The notes under the pieces are model-generated. The model saw nothing but the letters and a program-made list of their open reading frames with translations, ran no database searches and was not told where the DNA came from. The position numbers were made by a program, and so were the translations under genes. This document shows positions 1,991-30,167 of a stretch of 33,897 bases of DNA, one piece after another. Position 1 is the stretch's first letter. The number at the start of each line of letters is the position of its first letter. Location: assembly GCA_000697665.1 (NCBI GenBank), contig KL197754.1:1-33897 (forward strand), read 5' to 3'. This DNA is from Jaapia argillacea MUCL 33604 (lineage: Eukaryota; Basidiomycota; Agaricomycetes; Jaapiales; Jaapiaceae).

Positions 1991-2290
1991 TGGTGTTTGC
2001 CTTGATTGCCTATACTGTACCATTTCAATCAGTTCGACAAACACATGACTTTTTTATTTCTCTGACAAATCTCAGAAAACCTGAAAAATCGAAATTAAAT
2101 TATTCCAGGGGTTAGAAAAAATCAGCTGTGACATGTGACTGTTGAATTGATTGAAATGGTACAGTATGTCATTTTCCCCCCTTTGTTGCATCTCAGTCTG
2201 CTACAATGCAACAAAGGTATGTCTCATTTCTTATATATGATCTCCTGTACTTATCAGTCTGCTACAATACAACAAAGCATGTTACTATCA
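1991..2290. repeat. Repeat-rich insertion splitting the pol remnant
   Basis: The pol text stops near 2290 (linker side) and resumes near 1990 (RT side), so this stretch interrupts it. It contains an imperfect 36-bp inverted repeat (2012-2047 and 2132-2167, about four mismatches, 84 bp loop). It also contains a 23-bp direct repeat with one mismatch (2194-2216 and 2255-2277, CAGTCTGCTACAATRCAACA core). The first copy of that repeat is part of a 10-bp perfect hairpin (2181-2190 with 2207-2216, CTTTGTTGCA/TGCAACAAAG). A small non-coding insertion such as a MITE would explain it, but the ends and target-site duplication are not clear. Confidence 0.5.
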
Positions 2291-3360
2291 GGCTGTATAA
2301 TTAGTTCGGTACTTGACCAAGTCAAGTTCCATTGGGTTTCCAGTCTTCTTTGAGCTCAATTGCATGATCCAATGGTCTAGCTTTTGGGAATCATTCTGAT
2401 ACCTTCTTTTTGAAGACCTCCCAATATTTCCTATATTTGGGATGTACCATTTCTTTGAATGTTTTTCCTTTTTGTCCTTTGGCCTCTTTTTTGGCCAACT
2501 CAATGGATTTATTTCTATGGGCTTGTACCTATATTCCAGCCATCTTGCGTACAGGTATTGCTTCCTTCCCTTATTTCATCAAGGATGTGTAGGGTTTAGC
2601 AAGGAATGGTTCCTCTGGGTCTGGTTCTCCAATGAGAACTTGGTATGTGTGAATTCCATTATGATTCCATCTCTCTGCAATAGAATCCAGTGGGTCAGAT
2701 AGACTGTCAATGGTCCAAAGTTCTTTTGGCAATGCTATTCTGCGTCCTTTTGCCTGAGCTCATATATATTTGGGCAGTAATTTCCAAGAGGGTCATGACA
2801 AGTGAGTGGTATCATTATTTTAACTAGAGGAGGACATAATGTTTTGTTTGACAGGGGGTTTCATCTGTCAAAGCCAAGTATCTGGTCAATCTGATGGTTT
2901 GGTATGAACAATGCCTGGTCCTTTGATTTAGCAGGTATTTGGGCAACAAGTAAATTTAAGGTTATAGTCCTGCCATCCAACTTCCAGATTATGTTCATGA
3001 AGCCAATCAGTTCCTAAAATTATGTCATTGTCTCCAATGTCCACGACATAAAACTGATTGCTTTCCCAGTACAATGTATTATGTGGCCCCTTAATTTCCA
3101 GATCAAGTTCCACACAATCCTTGATTTCTCCCCCCTTGTTTTCAGTGTCATCAACATTGTGGACAGGAATGAGGGAGGTGAGTCAATGAGTCATGATTTG
3201 ATGTTTCTTCACTAGGGCCTTGGTTACAGCTCTTTTGTTCCTTCCCACTAACTCCACTTCTAGGTGTAATGATGGTATGCCATTTTTCTTGAGTGTGGAG
3301 ACAGATATTTTGTTAGGGATATTGGTATCCAAGATCATAAATCTGTTATAGGAAGGATTG
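2288..3360 (-). pseudogene. Retroelement protease and protease-RT linker remnant
   Basis: On the minus strand the segment 3113-2928 matches the C-terminal half of a retropepsin-like Gag-Pol protease (FYVVDIGDNDIILGTDWLHEHN). The preceding part (about 3350-3200) reads ...NKRAVTKAL and then jumps straight to VKKHQIMTH followed by TGA. The place where family members carry the DSGA/DTGA catalytic aspartate is missing, which looks like an in-frame loss of about 13-14 codons. Positions 2503-2288 hold the lysine-rich linker that precedes RT in this family (KKRPKDKKEK ... ELDLVKYRTNY). The enzyme would be inactive. Confidence 0.8.
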
Positions 3361-21541: not shown

Positions 21542-22627
21542 CTAATCCTCCTTCATCTCCGCCTTGATCTGGGCATGACGCTTGACAGCATCATCCCAGA
21601 AGTTGAACAATGATGGTGTCTGCCACTCCTTCACCCAAGCGCCGTATTCGCCGTCGACGACAAGCAACCTCTCATCTTCTCGCGCAACCTCATCCAATAA
21701 AAGCCAGATACTCGACTCTCGAATATCTTTCCTCATCAGTTCGCGATCTTGGCTTTCCCTCCGAAGGGAAGGGAATATACTGACGACCATCATCTTGAGG
21801 GTCTTTCTCGACCTCAAGCAATCACGAATATCGGAGGTGAAAGCGAGGTCGTTATCTTCGTTGGCACGGGCGCGTCGACAAAGGTGGAGGTGGGAGAGAC
21901 TCGAGAGTGGGGATGAGAAGGAGTCGAGAACGGATGGGAGGGAATGGTACAAGTCGGATGGTTCGCAGAATCGGAGATGAGTGAGGGAAGCGAATAGAGC
22001 TGGGTTGGGTTTTCTATGCGAGGAAGGGGTAGAAGTAGACCCTGCCGGAAGGTAGAATGATAGTATGGGCTTGGGAGCGAGATCGATGTAAGATCCAAGG
22101 ACGAGCTCGAACGGAGATGGTGGGGATGATGTGGTGATGTGTTTGACATCACGGTACGATGATGTCCGAGGTGGGAACGATGCGGTGAATGGTAGATCGC
22201 AAGGAGGCAAAGCTAAAACTCTGCAGCCAGAGCAAGTATGTACGATCCTAGCCAGTTCGTTCTCGACGTGACTATGCATCCTCCCTGTCCATGTCACCGC
22301 CAACTTCTTGACATGGTTGGAAATGAAACCAGGGGGCTTGGTAAGGGTCGTGCGATGGAATAATGATATCTTGTGAGGAGTCGCGAGGGTGACATTGGTA
22401 TACAGTATGATGTCTATGAGCTGGCTGATTCGTTTGCAAATCGACGCGAGGGCGGACGCGTTTCGTCTATTGTATATGATGACCAGGTCTAGGATCTTGA
22501 GAATGAGTTCGGAGGGAAGGGTCAGGAGGAACGAAGCCTGTCCCTGCGGTGTCGTGAAATACAACGAAAGCCCGCGCTTTCGCGTCAAGGTTGAGGAGGT
22601 GGTCGATGTAATGGTGGTCGTCGACAT
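21542..22627 (-). CDS. F-box-like protein, 361 aa
   Basis: Single-exon gene. The first ATG is at 22627 (the frame opens three codons earlier with TTG). After a Ser/Thr-rich start, residues ~35-80 have an F-box-like pattern (LPSELILKILDLVI...ASICKRISQLIDIILYTNV). Then comes a region with leucine-rich flavour (LFASLTHLRFCEP, LSSLSHLHLC) and a C-terminal block (LLVVDGEYGAWVKEW...FNFWDDA) that parallels the end of the F-box-like protein at 15851-16750. Probable SCF substrate adaptor; target unknown. Confidence 0.75.
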   Translation of the reverse strand: MSTTTITSTTSSTLTRKRGLSLYFTTPQGQASFLLTLPSELILKILDLVIIYNRRNASALASICKRISQLIDIILYTNVTLATPHKISLFHRTTLTKPPGFISNHVKKLAVTWTGRMHSHVENELARIVHTCSGCRVLALPPCDLPFTASFPPRTSSYRDVKHITTSSPPSPFELVLGSYIDLAPKPILSFYLPAGSTSTPSSHRKPNPALFASLTHLRFCEPSDLYHSLPSVLDSFSSPLSSLSHLHLCRRARANEDNDLAFTSDIRDCLRSRKTLKMMVVSIFPSLRRESQDRELMRKDIRESSIWLLLDEVAREDERLLVVDGEYGAWVKEWQTPSLFNFWDDAVKRHAQIKAEMKED

Positions 22628-23869
22628 GGTGCCCAAATTCCGGAGGGTATCAAGATGGTGGTTGGCAGTAAAAAAGCAAAAGATACTGACTCACCTATAT
22701 GTAGCGAATTGGCCAATCGCGCTATCGTTGGGGGTTACGGCGACGGCGTAGTAAGCTAAATCGGCTCCCCGGTTCACTCCGACCTCCGGTTGGTTCCAAA
22801 CTCTGAGCTTCAGCGCAGACGGTGGCGATGGCGACATGATCGCCCAATGACGATCTTCCTGAATACTGTTTCCTCGGAAGACAGATGTACCACACCGGCA
22901 GCAAGTTGCACAAGCTACACCGAGCAGTATCCTAGCATACAGGAGCTATTTCTGCAGTCCATTTGGCTGGGTCGTGCAGGGTCTTCGATGGCGACGGCGA
23001 CTAGGAAGATACCAGTGTTTTTGGAACTTCATCGTCGTTGACGAGAGAAAGGAGCAGGTCTAGATGAAAGTTTCGCAGGAGCTACGCTCGTGAGTATTCA
23101 TTTCGAAGCTGGGGGTCTCCTGACCCACTGGTCAAACGTGGAACTTATGTCTGGCATCTTGCTGGCATCTATACAAGTACCTGCGTCAGGTTTCAACCGA
23201 AACGGCAATCATCAAAGAAAGGGGGAACCGCTGCAATTAATACAGAACAACCTCCAGGCGTGTTCAAGAACAGCGGATGAGGGTACGGCAACTACGGTAT
23301 ACTCTCAACGGCTCTGCGCCTGCTCCTACTTACTCCGTGCCAGAGACTCGGGCTGACTCGGGGCGTGCTTTCTAACCAAACTCTTGCTCAGTCATATGAA
23401 GCTCAGTTTCCCAAATTCGCGGCCTGCGCATGAAGGTGCATGTCTCCCGTATTTCTGACCATAGCGTATCTCGTCTGTTGTGTTTGACATATGTTGTTAA
23501 CTAAAGCTGAAGCGCTGAAGATTGGGGAGGGTGCTAAATATGATGATGCTCTTGTATGCTGCCCTCCTCGTCCAGAAAAGTTCCAATTCTACGAGGGATC
23601 CATGACTTCTATATCTACTGAGCCAATGCTGTACCAAGTCCTTTGAGCTGTGCAGCCAAGGTTCCGCCAGACCCTCGACTATCCCACTTTTGGTTCCTAT
23701 CGCCTCCTTCAGTCCATGAACTCAATGTCGTCGCATGGCGCCGATCATGCAATTTGCTTCAAATGCATACGCTTAGTGACAATGACAGCAGCTCCTTGTT
23801 CGTGAACTACACCCTCCCCTTCGACCTGGGAGGCTGGGACTTGGCATTGATTGCTGAGCAACCTTCAAG
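22628..23869. other. Divergent promoter region, no supported gene
   Basis: Separates the minus-strand F-box-like gene from the plus-strand RING gene. Small overlapping frames show no motif. Both genes may be driven from here. No TATA box is convincing near either start. Confidence 0.4.
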
Positions 23870-26800
23870 ATGAGTATCAGTCCCAGCGAGGTGTTTTCAG
23901 GGATCAAATTCATTCAAGGCGTGGTTTCGAAAGTGAGTACAGTTCTATCTGACGCGTGGCTGTTCGAAATGCTGTGTACTGACGAGCAACGCGTCTCAGG
24001 TGAAGGATAATCGAACCAACCTTCAGCGTCTGTCCAGCCGTTTGGAACATATTCTTGTTACTATTGAGGAGACGAAGAGTCGGGATGCCATCAGTTCGGA
24101 TGATTATAACGATGCTATGACCGTCTTGTCCGAGTGAGTGTTTGGTTCTAAATTTGCGTAGGCGTTGATATTCACGCGTTGGAATGGCAATGAAGACTCG
24201 TTGAACGATCGCAGAGGGCTACGCAGAAGGAACTGAAGCGTTCACTGGGAGACAGAACGTGGAACCGAAACGAGATTGATATTGAGATTAAACGAATTAT
24301 TGAGGATGTAAACCATCATCTCAGCACCCATTCGGTCAGTTTCTACGTTGCGCTCTGTCTGGCTAGGTCTGAATTTGGTGTTTGGTTAAAGATCCAAGTC
24401 ATGGATGCCATGCAAATGTGAGTGTGCATGTATTCACCTTTTCCCCGTCTAGCTTATGCTATGTTCCAGTACTAACGAGAAGAGCTTTACGATGTTGTCC
24501 AATATGGTTTCGTCGGGTATGGAAGATATTATGGCAATGGCACGTCCCCTTCCTGGACCAAAATTCCTACACAAATGCTTATCCATCACAGGTAGCAGCT
24601 TTGGATCAGCGTCTCAACACCCCCGCCGGCCCGAACTGGTCTCCGTAAGCAGAGCAGTCTTCCCCTCAGTATCCGTGACTGATATTGACTTGATGATAGA
24701 CTCATTTTGGCACGAGCCCAGGATACTTGGCGCCAACTGGCCCGAGAAGTTGAAGAACAAAGCCGGGAGCAATCCTTCAAGAAAGCGACAGCGAAGTCTG
24801 AGAGAGGGTTTGGGCCGTCTCCTAACGTGCGGGTAAGACCTTTCAATTATCATCATCGGCATCTATGACTGAATTCCTTCGTGGGTAATCACCTTCAGAT
24901 TAATAGCTTCGGCCCTGCCGTACGTGTCTCCCTGCCACGGCTCACGATGGATTCATCTAACTGGAGCATATAGCCACCACAGCCCGTCTATAATCCGGAT
25001 CGGAACTCAAGAAGAGTAAGTGCGTCATCTTACTCTATGTATCGCATTTCATTGAATTTCATCGTGCTACTTAGATATCTGTGCCAACCAATGGCAACTT
25101 GGACTTCGACATCAAATCCGTGCGTATGATGGCAGCCCAGGGACGGACTTCTATCCAAATCACTGGTCTGAGGCATAGCGATGTGACTGGTGATATAATG
25201 GAGCGTGTCACTATCGAGAATATTCACCCATATGCGCATTTCAACGACGTTCTCAAGGCGATCAGAAACAACGGTAAGCTCGTTACATCCTTCGTGCAAC
25301 ATCGCGTTCTCAGCATCTGTTTCCAGGCTACAATGTCCCGGACGATCTGATTGAAGATCAACTACTCTGTAACATCACGAAAGGCTCTACTCAGTTTGAT
25401 GCTACTGCTCCGGGCGGCTTGCAAATTGACGAGTGAGTAGGCTGTCGTATTGATCGTTCTCCTCGCGTCTCATCTTTATGTAGGACTATGCCCCTCATTC
25501 AATGGTGGACGAAATATATCGAGTTTCACGGTTTGGCACCTGCCACAACACCAAGTCACACTCTAGCAACCCTGAGCGATTATGGCACGGCGGTCACGGT
25601 CGGAGGTGTAGAGTTTCGTTTTCATCGAACCCTTCGTGTGCCCGATGGTGCTGCGCCGAACATGCTCCCGGAAGTAAGTGATTCGACCTGTTTTTCCTTT
25701 GATCCGTCTGATCGAACCCATATTATAGAGTCTGGGTATGTTCCCATTGGTACCCGTCGCCAAATATGCCCACAAGTTGCCTCCGAAAGTTGTTGAGGCT
25801 GGAGGTTTTATTATTGTGAGTGACTGTGAGGTTGATGTCTGTCGCTGCGTTTGTTCTAACGTTGCTCTAGCCGATGTTCCAAAGGGAAGCCATGTGGATT
25901 GCGTTTACAACATCCTCGCGGGAGGCGCCGGAAGCGATTAAGGTCTCTGTTGGGAGTACGTGTTCCTCGCTGTCTTGATGTTTCCCCTTCTCATGTATAT
26001 GCTCAAGGTGTCAACGCGATCTCTGGCATTCCAAAGGACAAACCGACTCCCCCAAGTGGGGAACAAGATTATATCGTCGCAGGACTGCAACCATGGCTTG
26101 ATGGTGTGATGACTGAAGCTGGGGTTGTACGACAGGTCTGGATCCTGTGTTTTGTACATCTCGCTTTGAATTGACATCGGGTCCCAGTTTGTTGCCATGT
26201 CCCACGGTGGTAATTATACCGTCGAAGAACAAGTTACAGGCGAGGCGAAGCATGGTGGTATGCAGTTCGATGTCTTCCCTCGACGAGATGAGCGATTTGG
26301 CGAATTTTATCTCCACACTCGCGGCAAGAGTCATTGGACTCCCGATGGGACCCTCGCGAGTGACAAAACCCCTCGCGAGCTGAATTTACGGGTCGGCAGT
26401 GTCATTGGTGTCCGAGAGTAAGGCCATCTGTTCCTTTACCAGATCGGTGGAGGGTACTCATCTGCTTTCAAGTGTTCCCTCCATGAAAGGAGATCAAGAT
26501 CTTGTCAAGAATTGGAGACTTTCGGGCTACAGAAGAAGAGTACACAACGTGGTCCACTTGAACGCCCTGTATCACCGAGTGCCAACACCACCTATTTACG
26601 TACAGCCCAGAACCTACGTACAACCCAATATCTACGTACCACCCAATACCTACGTGCCCCCACCCATGCCTCCGATTCCCAATTCATATCCCACACATGA
26701 CGAAGGTCCTGGCATCCTGGCATCACTATGCTGTTGTTTTGGTAGAAGCAGAGGAAACACGGATATGCCAGACACCTATTATGGAGGACCGAAGATGGCA

Positions 26801-28104
26801 GGGCCGGGACCCTTCTCACCCAATCCCTACCCGGAGCCCTCGTATGGAATGTACCCCCAGTACCCCGTCGCCCCTATCGCCACGATGCCAACGTACTACC
26901 AATCATCACCGATGCCCACGTACACATCACCGCCGATGCAAAGCCCACAGTACCAGGGGTCTCTTCCACCTGGTTCCGGCGCGGAACCCACGTACACATC
27001 ATCGCCGGGGCCAAGCTATCCCCCTACGCAGTCGTCAATGCCTCCTCCCCCTATGATGCAAGCACCTTCGCAATTTTATTCCACTCCTGAGGTATCGTTA
27101 TCGACGCCATATCCCGCTCCCATGGAATCATGCGGTCCTCCGTCTTATGATCCGCCCGTACTCTACAACGCTGCACCAGCCCCAAACAGGAATAATTCAA
27201 GTTATCCCGAACCGCAAGCGTCTCGGAGTGAGGCCGCTCCACCGCCTCCCACCGCGGTTTCGCCTCTAGGGCTGGCACCTGGAGGGAAAATGTGAGTTCT
27301 AACGCACACGCTCCTCAATGATTCTGACCTTATTACAGAGAACAGAAGATATACCAAGATTCTGTGTCTCCTAGAGTAAGTCGAATTTGGTCCTCACTCC
27401 GCTCTGCTGCATCTTAATTGAGGCAATATAGATGTACGATGAAGAACAAGGGCACCGGTTCCATATCCATATTCTTAGTCCTTCTGATTGGGAGGTATGT
27501 GGTCTTCACACATTCCGTTTCAAGTTGGCTCTGTTCACAAGGATCCCAGATCGTCACCGGCGTCTTACCACCCATCAGCCCGATCACAGCAGAATCATAC
27601 ACCGGCAATAACATCCCCTGGTTCTCGATTGCCGACGACTACACCACAGGTTTGACAAACACATCGCAAGCACTGGGGAACCTCAAATCCGTACACGAGA
27701 TGGATCGGTCGAAAGGTTTCCAGTTGCCTGACCTCGTGGATCCCGATCGTCCCCCGAATTGCCCCTTACATTCACGATCTACATCGACCTGCATCTTCCG
27801 TCCGTGCTCACACGTCGGATGCGACTCTTGCTTGGGTGCAGCGATGCTGAAAGGGTCTCGTTGCCCTAAATGCAACGCGCGGGTGGAGAGATTTGTTGGG
27901 ATAAAAGAACCCATCGCACAAGTGACTGAGATGTCAAATGATGCACCCGGCAGCAAAGAATGGAATGTCGCCCAAATTGAGGATCTAGCGCAGCGTGCAA
28001 CCGTCTCGAATAACGTTGCCATCATTCATCTTGAGGGAGATCGCGTGGCTCCCCTTCATGCCCCACCCTCCTACGAGAGTACATTTCCTCCTAACCGATA
28101 TTGA
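23870..28104 (+). CDS. Multidomain RING-finger protein, helical-bundle N-terminus (20 exons)
   Basis: Exons: 23870-23932, 24000-24133, 24196-24334, 24392-24417, 24470-24539, 24592-24644, 24700-24832, 24899-24919, 24974-25015, 25075-25273, 25327-25432, 25484-25673, 25729-25815, 25871-25955, 26008-26135, 26188-26417, 26473-27291, 27339-27375, 27432-27494, 27550-28104; 3180 nt, 1059 aa, phases consistent. Residues 1-205 are helical and charged, resembling the four-helix (MLKL/HeLo-like) N-termini of fungal death proteins (inference). Residues ~228-568 are a beta-rich module with QPWLDG and RQFVAMSHGGNYTVEEQVTGE, a block I remember from unnamed fungal and slime-mould proteins. Residues 569-841 are Pro/Tyr/Met-rich with a CCCF cysteine cluster. 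ILSPSDWE/IVTGVLPP follows, then a RING finger (946-983: CPLH...PCSHVGCDSC...CPKC). Likely an E3 ubiquitin ligase. Intron 5 is GC-AG. Confidence 0.85.
26599..26670 (+). repeat. 18-bp coding tandem repeat in the Pro/Tyr-rich linker
   Basis: Four head-to-tail units of 18 bp (26599-26616, 26617-26634, 26635-26652, 26653-26670) encode YVQPRT, YVQPNI, YVPPNT and YVPPPM. Each starts with TACGT. Such in-frame minisatellites can change copy number by slippage without breaking the reading frame. Further downstream the CCCACGTACACATCA phrase occurs twice (near 26917 and 26988). Confidence 0.8.
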
Positions 28105-28237: not shown

Positions 28238-28378
28238 TGTAACGTAACGACGCGCTTGTGGCGCAGAATTTCAATCCGAAAATGATAAGTCTTGATCTCC
28301 CTTCCTGCACCACTCCATCGTCTCACAATCCCCTTACCGTCGACTAACTCAAACTATCTCCCAATCTTTGACCCAACC

Positions 28379-30167
28379 ATGGACCAGAACGCAGCTTTGA
28401 ACGACCCTAGGGTTCAAGCTGTTCTGGGTCGCCTCGAAGCCCGTCCTTATCTTCAGGGAAACGATCTCCCTCGCAAGAATGCAAAGGCAAGGCTCAAGTG
28501 CGCATATATGGGATCCTACATGAAGGATCTCTTTGCCACTCATCCGAAACCTGCCCCATTATTGAATCCTCCAATTGTTACGGGAATGGCGGACGCCTTG
28601 AATCGGCTTCACTCCGTCTTGATGAAATATGGGGATGTGACTCGGGAAGAATTCAAAGAAGTACGAGACAATCCATTCCAACCACGTTCGCTGCGAAACT
28701 AATACATTCGCGTATTCCAGGTCCCTGGTCTGTTGAGACGGTTAAGGGAGCTACTTCGTGTTTACTACGACTCCATATTTACCGGCCACAACCCTGCCTC
28801 TTACCGATTCTGCGATGTCCAATCGATTTCGGAAGTGGGTCTGACGCTACATGAAATCGGGTTGTATCTCCAGTTCAATCCAATTCGCCTCCGCCAGTTG
28901 ATGGCGTACGCCGGCCTCGAAATGGACACCTTTTTGCTGGATGATCCCATTGATGTCGGGGAATGGCGCCAAGTGGCTGATGCTCGAACACGTCAAGTCG
29001 ATGCCGATCCCGAGGCCGATGACGACGACCGAATGGCTTTGGCAGAGCTAGACCAAAAATCGCAAAAAGACCAGGCAGGATATCAAATGATGTTTTTCAT
29101 TGCCGACGTCCTTGTTGCGCTTTTCTTCCATCCAAAGTTGGATCGGAAGGATAAGGAAAGGAGCAAGAAAGCCCTAGCCAGAATAGTCGAATGGTCAACG
29201 GTGGGTATGTACCGGGATGCGTTTGGGGACGCGTTGACGGATGCCATGATTGATGTCTACAAGTCACAAAAACATCTTGTCGAGTTCGGTCAAGCTGGGG
29301 GACTTGGCGCTTTGATCGGAGATTGGGTGAGCTACTGGGTTACAAATTTGAATTCACTTGTTTATCGATCCGCTCTCAGGCCGAAAGTAATTATAAGAAC
29401 AGTTGGTGCAAAGAGGCCGTCGAAACACTCCCCGATGCCGCTTGGAATCGACAAACAGACGCCTCATTGGATTCTGTAATGCGTGGTCTGCTCCTCAAAC
29501 AGGAACATGATGGGGACGAGATCTTCGTATGTTTCCTTGACATAGTAGTTCTGATTCCGTTCTAATCTGCTCCTCTCCCGCGCAGCAAACTCTGACAGTC
29601 GCCAGAATGTTTCATAACATATACATTCGTTACGGCTTGAAACCGTTCGAACGAGCCAGCAAATTCTCTCCCCTCGACATTATCTTCTACTTCCTCTTTC
29701 GCCGCGCTGCGAAACGGAAACAAAAACTCCAAACCGTGGAGGACTGGGTGGCCCTTTTGAACAAGTATCGCGAGGTTCCGAGAGCGACAAGGACGAGGCA
29801 TTCTTGGATTCTCATGTCCGTCTCCACTCGTTGGGACTTCGTCAGTATGGATGTAGATCAAGGATATGGCTGTCGGAGTCCTGCCTGCCCTACTCGAGCC
29901 GAACTTGTGGAATTGAAAGCGCGGAGGGTCAGGGGCATTAGGAACCACGATGTCGAGGAGAAATTGTACAAGTTTGGTGGAACTCCTTCTGCCTGTAAAA
30001 AGTTTGTCGGCTTTCCTCAGCTAGGTCAACCACTTGCTAATATCTATTGCCTGGCTAGCTGCCGACATGTTGCATATTGCGGCAAAGAGTGTCAAGCAGC
30101 AGATTGGAGGCGGCACAGGGAAGAGTGTAGAACCGAGGGTGCCAAGGGTCACAATGAGGATGTGTAG
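28379..30167 (+). CDS. MYND-type zinc-finger protein (4 exons)
   Basis: Exons 28379-28660, 28721-29326, 29380-29526 and 29586-30167 give 1617 nt, 538 aa. The first ~420 residues are helical and of unknown function (...VPGLLRRLRELLRVYYDSIF..., LVALFFHPKLDRKDKERSKKAL). The C-terminus carries a MYND-like finger. An upstream pair GCRSPAC is followed by YCLASCRHVAYCGKECQAADWRRHREEC, matching the CxxC...YCxxxCQxxDWxxHxxxC pattern. MYND fingers bind protein partners, often in transcription or methyltransferase complexes, but no SET domain is present here. Agaricomycete genomes hold many such hypothetical MYND proteins. Confidence 0.85.

Follow-up and report, generated by a model that had tools for sequence, protein, structure and literature searches.

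The question raised by this locus is how a helical bundle, a conserved module and a RING-like finger come to be joined in one mushroom protein, and what such a protein may do. The gene is found in Jaapia argillacea MUCL 33604, at positions 23870 to 28104 on the forward strand of the window (the whole stretch of DNA analysed, 33,897 nucleotides of contig KL197754.1, assembly GCA_000697665.1), and encodes 1059 residues. Profile comparison identifies the middle of the protein as a single bacterial-type domain, called X here, which is interrupted by a long insertion. A likely but borderline MLKL-type bundle is located before X, and a plausible RING finger is located after it.

Domain X and its bacterial and phage relatives

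The original prediction noted a conserved module, marked by QPWLDG (residue 477) and YTVEEQ (residue 502), and took it to be distinct from the C-terminal part. The module gives no match in Pfam, NCBIfam, or PDB up to E 1. By tblastn, it is found in 6 of 72,556 plasmid records (40–47% identity) and in 2 of 50,697 phage records (37–46%). The bacterial protein consists of module A, a variable stretch, and a second block, which corresponds to the fungal residues directly ahead of the RING-like finger. A profile of X, built from 46 bacterial and viral-contig members selected among 97 loci, matches the window protein with 284 bits in total, in two pieces in the A-then-B order.

25608..26331, + strand: module A, the first half of X, residues 371–540 (196.7 bits)
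27239..27723, + strand: module B, the second half of X, residues 825–933 (84.9 bits)

None of 50 shuffled sequences matches the profile, and the reversed sequence is likewise silent. Since both blocks match one continuous bacterial protein family, residues 371–933 are, by sequence comparison, one bacterial-type domain interrupted by about 285 residues. Thus, the conservation of the module stands, while its separation from the C-terminal part does not; the two are halves of one domain flanking an inserted linker.

Thirty-six residues are invariant across the 46 aligned members, and 33 of them are retained in the window copy. The profile also matches the paralogue described below (210.6 bits; 146.5 and 61.7 for the pieces); that only 25 of the 36 invariants are retained there is a point against the overall explanation given below. 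The predicted structure of one bacterial member has a mean predicted local distance difference test score (pLDDT) of 91.3 and a predicted template modeling score of 0.89. The single stretch under pLDDT 50 is residues 180–194, the site of the linker insertion in the fungal protein. The model suggests that the fungal linker sits where bacterial X has a disordered loop.

X is an uninterrupted open frame of about 300–380 residues in most of the 97 bacterial and viral loci. In genome contigs, at least 592 pattern matches were obtained, with 575 relatives among the matches listed, of which the best 80 were retained; the viral contigs gave 17 relatives among 29 pattern matches. Judging from record titles and tree labels, members occur in Myxococcota, Chloroflexota, Actinomycetota, Cyanobacteriota, Acidobacteriota, Gemmatimonadota, Poribacteria, and others. 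The distribution is patchy: 2 of 194 genomes in the phylum of one member and 32 of 101 in the genus of another (central genomes included). Each of the four genomes examined for copy number has one copy, and Nitrosomonas marina has two loci. Scans of X members against Pfam (seven members), NCBIfam (five), PHROGs (four), and PADLOC (four) gave only chance-like matches (best E 0.025), suggesting that, for the members scanned, X has not been catalogued.

The gene neighborhoods of X were compared at 105 loci (L039–L143), which are best matches and not a random sample. A helix-turn-helix gene lies within 150 bp upstream of X on the same strand at 35 of them, including 11 of the 17 viral contigs, and 150–330 bp upstream at two additional loci; only one other helix-turn-helix match is found in the flanks (L141). 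The helix-turn-helix partner is therefore frequent yet does not define the family (35/105). Astacin-like peptidase genes are present at 8 of the 105 loci and caspase-domain genes at four (L043 and L102 above the Pfam cut-off, L106 slightly under it, and L045 by tblastn), both as raw counts. In two longer open frames, X is joined to TPR repeats (L076) or to a VWA domain scoring under the cut-off (L094).

Two individual loci are recorded here as side observations. On a Bradyrhizobium plasmid (L043, 4953–10444), the gene for X precedes those for an M12 metallopeptidase, a caspase-domain protein, and a trypsin-like protein; conflict systems of bacteria that contain caspase and trypsin components are described in an excerpt of PMC7159879. 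In the phage record Rctr197k (L042, 3953–5061), the X match spans two overlapping frames, the second of which the depositor annotated as a similar feature and not as a coding sequence.

Gene model, paralogue, and selection

The model rebuilt from the window sequence has 20 exons in one frame and reproduces exactly the exon number, the length, and the agreeing phases that had been predicted.

23870..28104, + strand: whole coding region, 20 exons, 1059 residues; 19 of 19 introns common to the paralogue on contig C18
23870-23932, 24000-24133, 24196-24334, 24392-24417, 24470-24539, + strand: exons 1–5
24592-24644, 24700-24832, 24899-24919, 24974-25015, 25075-25273, + strand: exons 6–10
25327-25432, 25484-25673, 25729-25815, 25871-25955, 26008-26135, + strand: exons 11–15
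26188-26417, 26473-27291, 27339-27375, 27432-27494, 27550-28104, + strand: exons 16–20
24540..24591, + strand: intron 5, GC-AG; the paralogue has GT at the same site

A search of the source genome (43.7 Mb, 95 contigs) revealed that contig C18 carries another full-length copy (locus L022), with 1212 residues and 20 exons in identical phases. Its junctions were set by homology to the window gene, and with this setting all 19 introns start with GT, end with AG, and occupy the same positions as in the window gene. The mean identity between the copies is 85% in exons and 75% in introns (splice sites excluded), and exon 17 differs in length by 255 nucleotides with the frame maintained. Judging from the sequences, it is very unlikely that two genes are separated at 26417-26473, because the paralogue retains the intron there and the homologues of both sides form one continuous bacterial protein.

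A later acceptor for exon 3 was also considered. It gives a protein of 1052 residues, and the N-terminal piece then scores only 24.3 bits against MLKL_N versus 29.6 bits for the 1059-residue form. The longer form is preferred because of this higher score and because the paralogue has the identical residue at six of the seven added positions.

The ratio of nonsynonymous to synonymous substitution rates (dN/dS) between the two copies is 0.26 overall (952 aligned codons). By part, it is 0.09 in the bundle, 0.15 in residues 227–366, 0.16 in module A (367–570), 0.66 in the linker (180 aligned codons), 0.22 in module B (837–945), and 0.26 in the tail. Purifying selection is acting on the bundle, X, and the tail.

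At its C terminus, the paralogue is extended by repeats of about 33 residues each (L022, about 2270–3040, − strand), which are absent from the window gene. Two truncated copies are also found on C18, L037 (5043–5991, − strand) and L038 (5943–6412, − strand), which match only residues 1–208 and 1–113, respectively, and then diverge; they may represent copies in decay or genes for the bundle alone. Searches of the source genome found no further copy of the middle domain, the counts being lower bounds. In the window, the flanking open frames at 21542–22690 (− strand) and 28289–29479 (+ strand) give no match in Pfam at E values up to 0.01.

Parts joined to X

The N-terminal part had been described as an MLKL-like bundle, an assignment called weak at the time.

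23870..24644, + strand: MLKL_N-type helical bundle, exons 1–6, residues 1–161 (Pfam match at residues 15–140)
25075..25595, + strand: second N-terminal domain, residues 228–366, for which no relative was found beyond the gene pair

MLKL_N (PF22215; curated cut-off 27 bits) matches residues 15–140 with 29.6 bits (E 5e-7) when the piece 1–155 is scanned and with 28.0 bits for the piece 1–200. The next Pfam family is far lower, at 13.2–13.7 bits. Neither the reversed sequence nor five shuffles match MLKL_N, and their best score to any family is 17.2 bits. Other helical or coiled-coil families match weakly: Mer2 (13.7 bits), ZorA2 (13.6 bits, E 0.02), and PbeC (14.8 bits, E 0.002). Two results count against the assignment: the full protein scores only 24.3 bits, and the N-terminal pieces of the paralogue score 22.8 and 23.5 bits, all below the cut-off. 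The MLKL-type bundle is thus likely but borderline, strengthened relative to the original prediction by the match and its silent decoys and held back by the scores in the full protein and the paralogue. HeLo-type models are present in Pfam, and no HeLo-family match was obtained in the Pfam scans (E up to 1 or 0.5), which distant members may escape.

Residues 228–366 match nothing in Pfam or NCBIfam up to E 1 and give no plasmid match, and the best PDB match has an E value of 0.33. They probably form a small domain of a kind not recognized from these four comparisons.

The features on the C-terminal side of the protein are as follows.

26474..27274, + strand: inserted linker, residues 570–836, Pro/Tyr-rich from about residue 607; 53% identity to the paralogue over 180 aligned codons
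26588..26599, + strand: PPIY (residue 608), a PPxY motif at chance level
26729..26740, + strand: CCCF cluster, residues 655–658, candidate S-acylation site, kept in the paralogue
27137..27148, + strand: PPSY (residue 791), a PPxY motif at chance level
27760..27894, + strand: RING-like zinc finger, residues 946–990; ligands C946, H949, C961, H963, C966, C969, C980, and C983
28063..28074, + strand: C-terminal PPSY (residue 1047), a PPxY motif; PPIY in the paralogue

The eight ligands of the finger (residues 946–983) are spaced as C-x2-H-x11-C-x-H-x2-C-x2-C-x10-C-x2-C, which fits a cross-brace. Seven of the eight are canonical for C3HC4, position 2 being His. They are conserved in the paralogue, where the spacing ahead of the last pair is shorter by one residue. 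The PDB matches of the finger are led by RNF4 and RNF123, followed by PCGF6 and TRAF6 (E 4e-4 to 5e-3). Several observations argue against a RING finger. The scores for the 50-residue piece and the full protein are 26.0 and 18.9 bits with zf-C3HC4_3 (cut-off 27) and 25.6 and 18.5 bits with zf-RING_5 (cut-off 27.9), and the gene is not among the 26 places listed in a whole-genome search with zf-RING_2. A single-sequence fold model of 66 residues is uninformative (pLDDT 45.5), and dN/dS in the finger is 0.79, a value from 44 codons only with few silent changes. We name the finger RING-like because its Pfam scores fall below the curated cut-offs. The RING finger of the original prediction is plausible in view of a near-canonical ligand set kept in both copies, with the sub-threshold scores qualifying it.

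CCCF is common to both copies though nearly half of the aligned linker residues differ, and by analogy with cysteine clusters in general it may be S-acylated. The two PPxY motifs in the linker are at chance level (1.26 expected by shuffling), which weighs against the overall explanation given below, whereas the tail has one motif versus 0.02 expected, and this motif is conserved in the paralogue.

What the fusion may do

The bundle and the RING finger are of known kinds, and their combination with X looks new; no publication on a bundle-X-RING fusion turned up in searches limited to an open-access library. Similar sequences presumably occur in other mushrooms. Among known proteins, basidiomycete MLKL-like (BaMLKL) proteins resemble this one in an N-terminal helical domain that matches MLKL-type profiles, borderline in the present case. 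An excerpt of PMC9815663 describes them as abundant in Basidiomycota, with 600 sequences at the N-termini of fungal NLRs and homologues apart from NLR domains numbering in the hundreds. Whereas the BaMLKL domains of that excerpt head NLRs or stand alone, the bundle here is part of a fusion with X and a RING-like finger. HET-S/HeLo and HELLP would share with it the broad superfamily of MLKL-related bundles (excerpts of PMC9815663 and PMC12881547); the present protein differs in giving no HeLo-family Pfam match and in its additional RING and X. Compared with the bacterial and phage X family, modules A and B have the same order and the invariants are largely shared (33/36). Bacterial X, however, is mostly uninterrupted and often beside a helix-turn-helix gene, while fungal X is interrupted by a long arm and forms a fusion with a bundle and a RING.

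The best explanation of the whole, possible rather than probable as a complete account, is a sensor tethered to a membrane, in which an MLKL/Cbl-type bundle forms one end and a RING-type ligase the opposite end. The parts follow in the order of bundle, small domain, X with a loop apparently stretched into a Pro/Tyr arm carrying CCCF, RING-like finger, and PPxY tail. Putative S-acylation of the cysteine cluster would tether the protein to a membrane, where X would sense a ligand or partner and restrain the bundle. Upon sensing, the bundles would assemble at the membrane and bring the RING domains together, and the RING might ubiquitinate a target or the protein itself.

A helical bundle, a RING, and a proline-rich part are also the layout of Cbl RING ligases. 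Because Cbl has such a plan, a bundle together with a RING need not mean death, and adaptor-type signaling would be as likely as killing. For the same reason, the explanation above favors signaling, or the removal of a membrane target, over direct formation of pores. This likeness in the kinds of parts, with the conserved C-terminal PPxY, raises a reading in which the bundle is a substrate-binding scaffold and never a membrane toxin, and a membrane protein is removed by ubiquitination, perhaps with a Rsp5-type ligase recruited through PPxY. Cbl-N type bundles at the head of some plant NLRs, described in an excerpt of PMC11218826, are in line with it. However, neither the whole protein nor its pieces match Cbl_N, EF-hand, or SH2 at the sensitivity of Pfam scans, X precedes the RING, the linker differs from that of Cbl, the RING is under the cut-off, and the linker PPxY motifs are at chance level. 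We consider this Cbl-like adaptor ligase rather unlikely.

In a cell-death executor, the bundle would permeabilize membranes as HET-S and MLKL do, with a role in non-self recognition or defense; X and the linker would keep the bundle off, and the RING would cap the protein level through self-ubiquitination. The MLKL_N match, the bundle exons carried by both truncated copies, and the few bacterial X genes adjoining caspase and metallopeptidase genes speak for such a function, as do the membership of basidiomycete MLKL-like domains in the commonest superfamily of NLR N-termini in Basidiomycota and their occurrence outside NLRs (excerpt of PMC9815663). On the other side, the full protein has no NACHT or NB-ARC match in the Pfam scan, and the bundle match is borderline. 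Allorecognition genes frequently diversify, unlike this bundle, which changes slowly between the copies (dN/dS 0.09). We consider an executor unlikely.

Quite unlikely, by our estimate, is a one-protein immune receptor without an NLR core, in which X would be an uncatalogued sensor domain belonging to conflict or stress systems of bacteria and phages, placed by a fungus between a death-type bundle and a ubiquitin ligase; X would detect, the bundle would assemble at an S-acylated membrane site, and the RING would execute or restrain.

A reading in which the bundle match reflects generic helical resemblance, leaving simply a RING-like protein with X, is improbable: the borderline MLKL_N scores and the weak Mer2, ZorA2, and PbeC matches would suit it, but the match covers 126 residues at the N terminus, the next Pfam family reaches only 13.2–13.7 bits, and MLKL_N matches neither the reversed sequence nor any of five shuffles.

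The fusion, as read from sequence, points to a sensor anchored in a membrane and possibly acting through ubiquitin. It links X, which is spread across many bacterial phyla and phages, to a bundle and a RING of eukaryotic type. Should X prove to be a sensor, the bacterial pairs of helix-turn-helix gene and X would offer a simple laboratory handle on what X senses, and the fungal gene would show such a part built into a eukaryotic signaling protein. The known uses of MLKL-type bundles in mushrooms, where these bundles are abundant and little tested, would also be widened by an architecture that lacks an NLR core.

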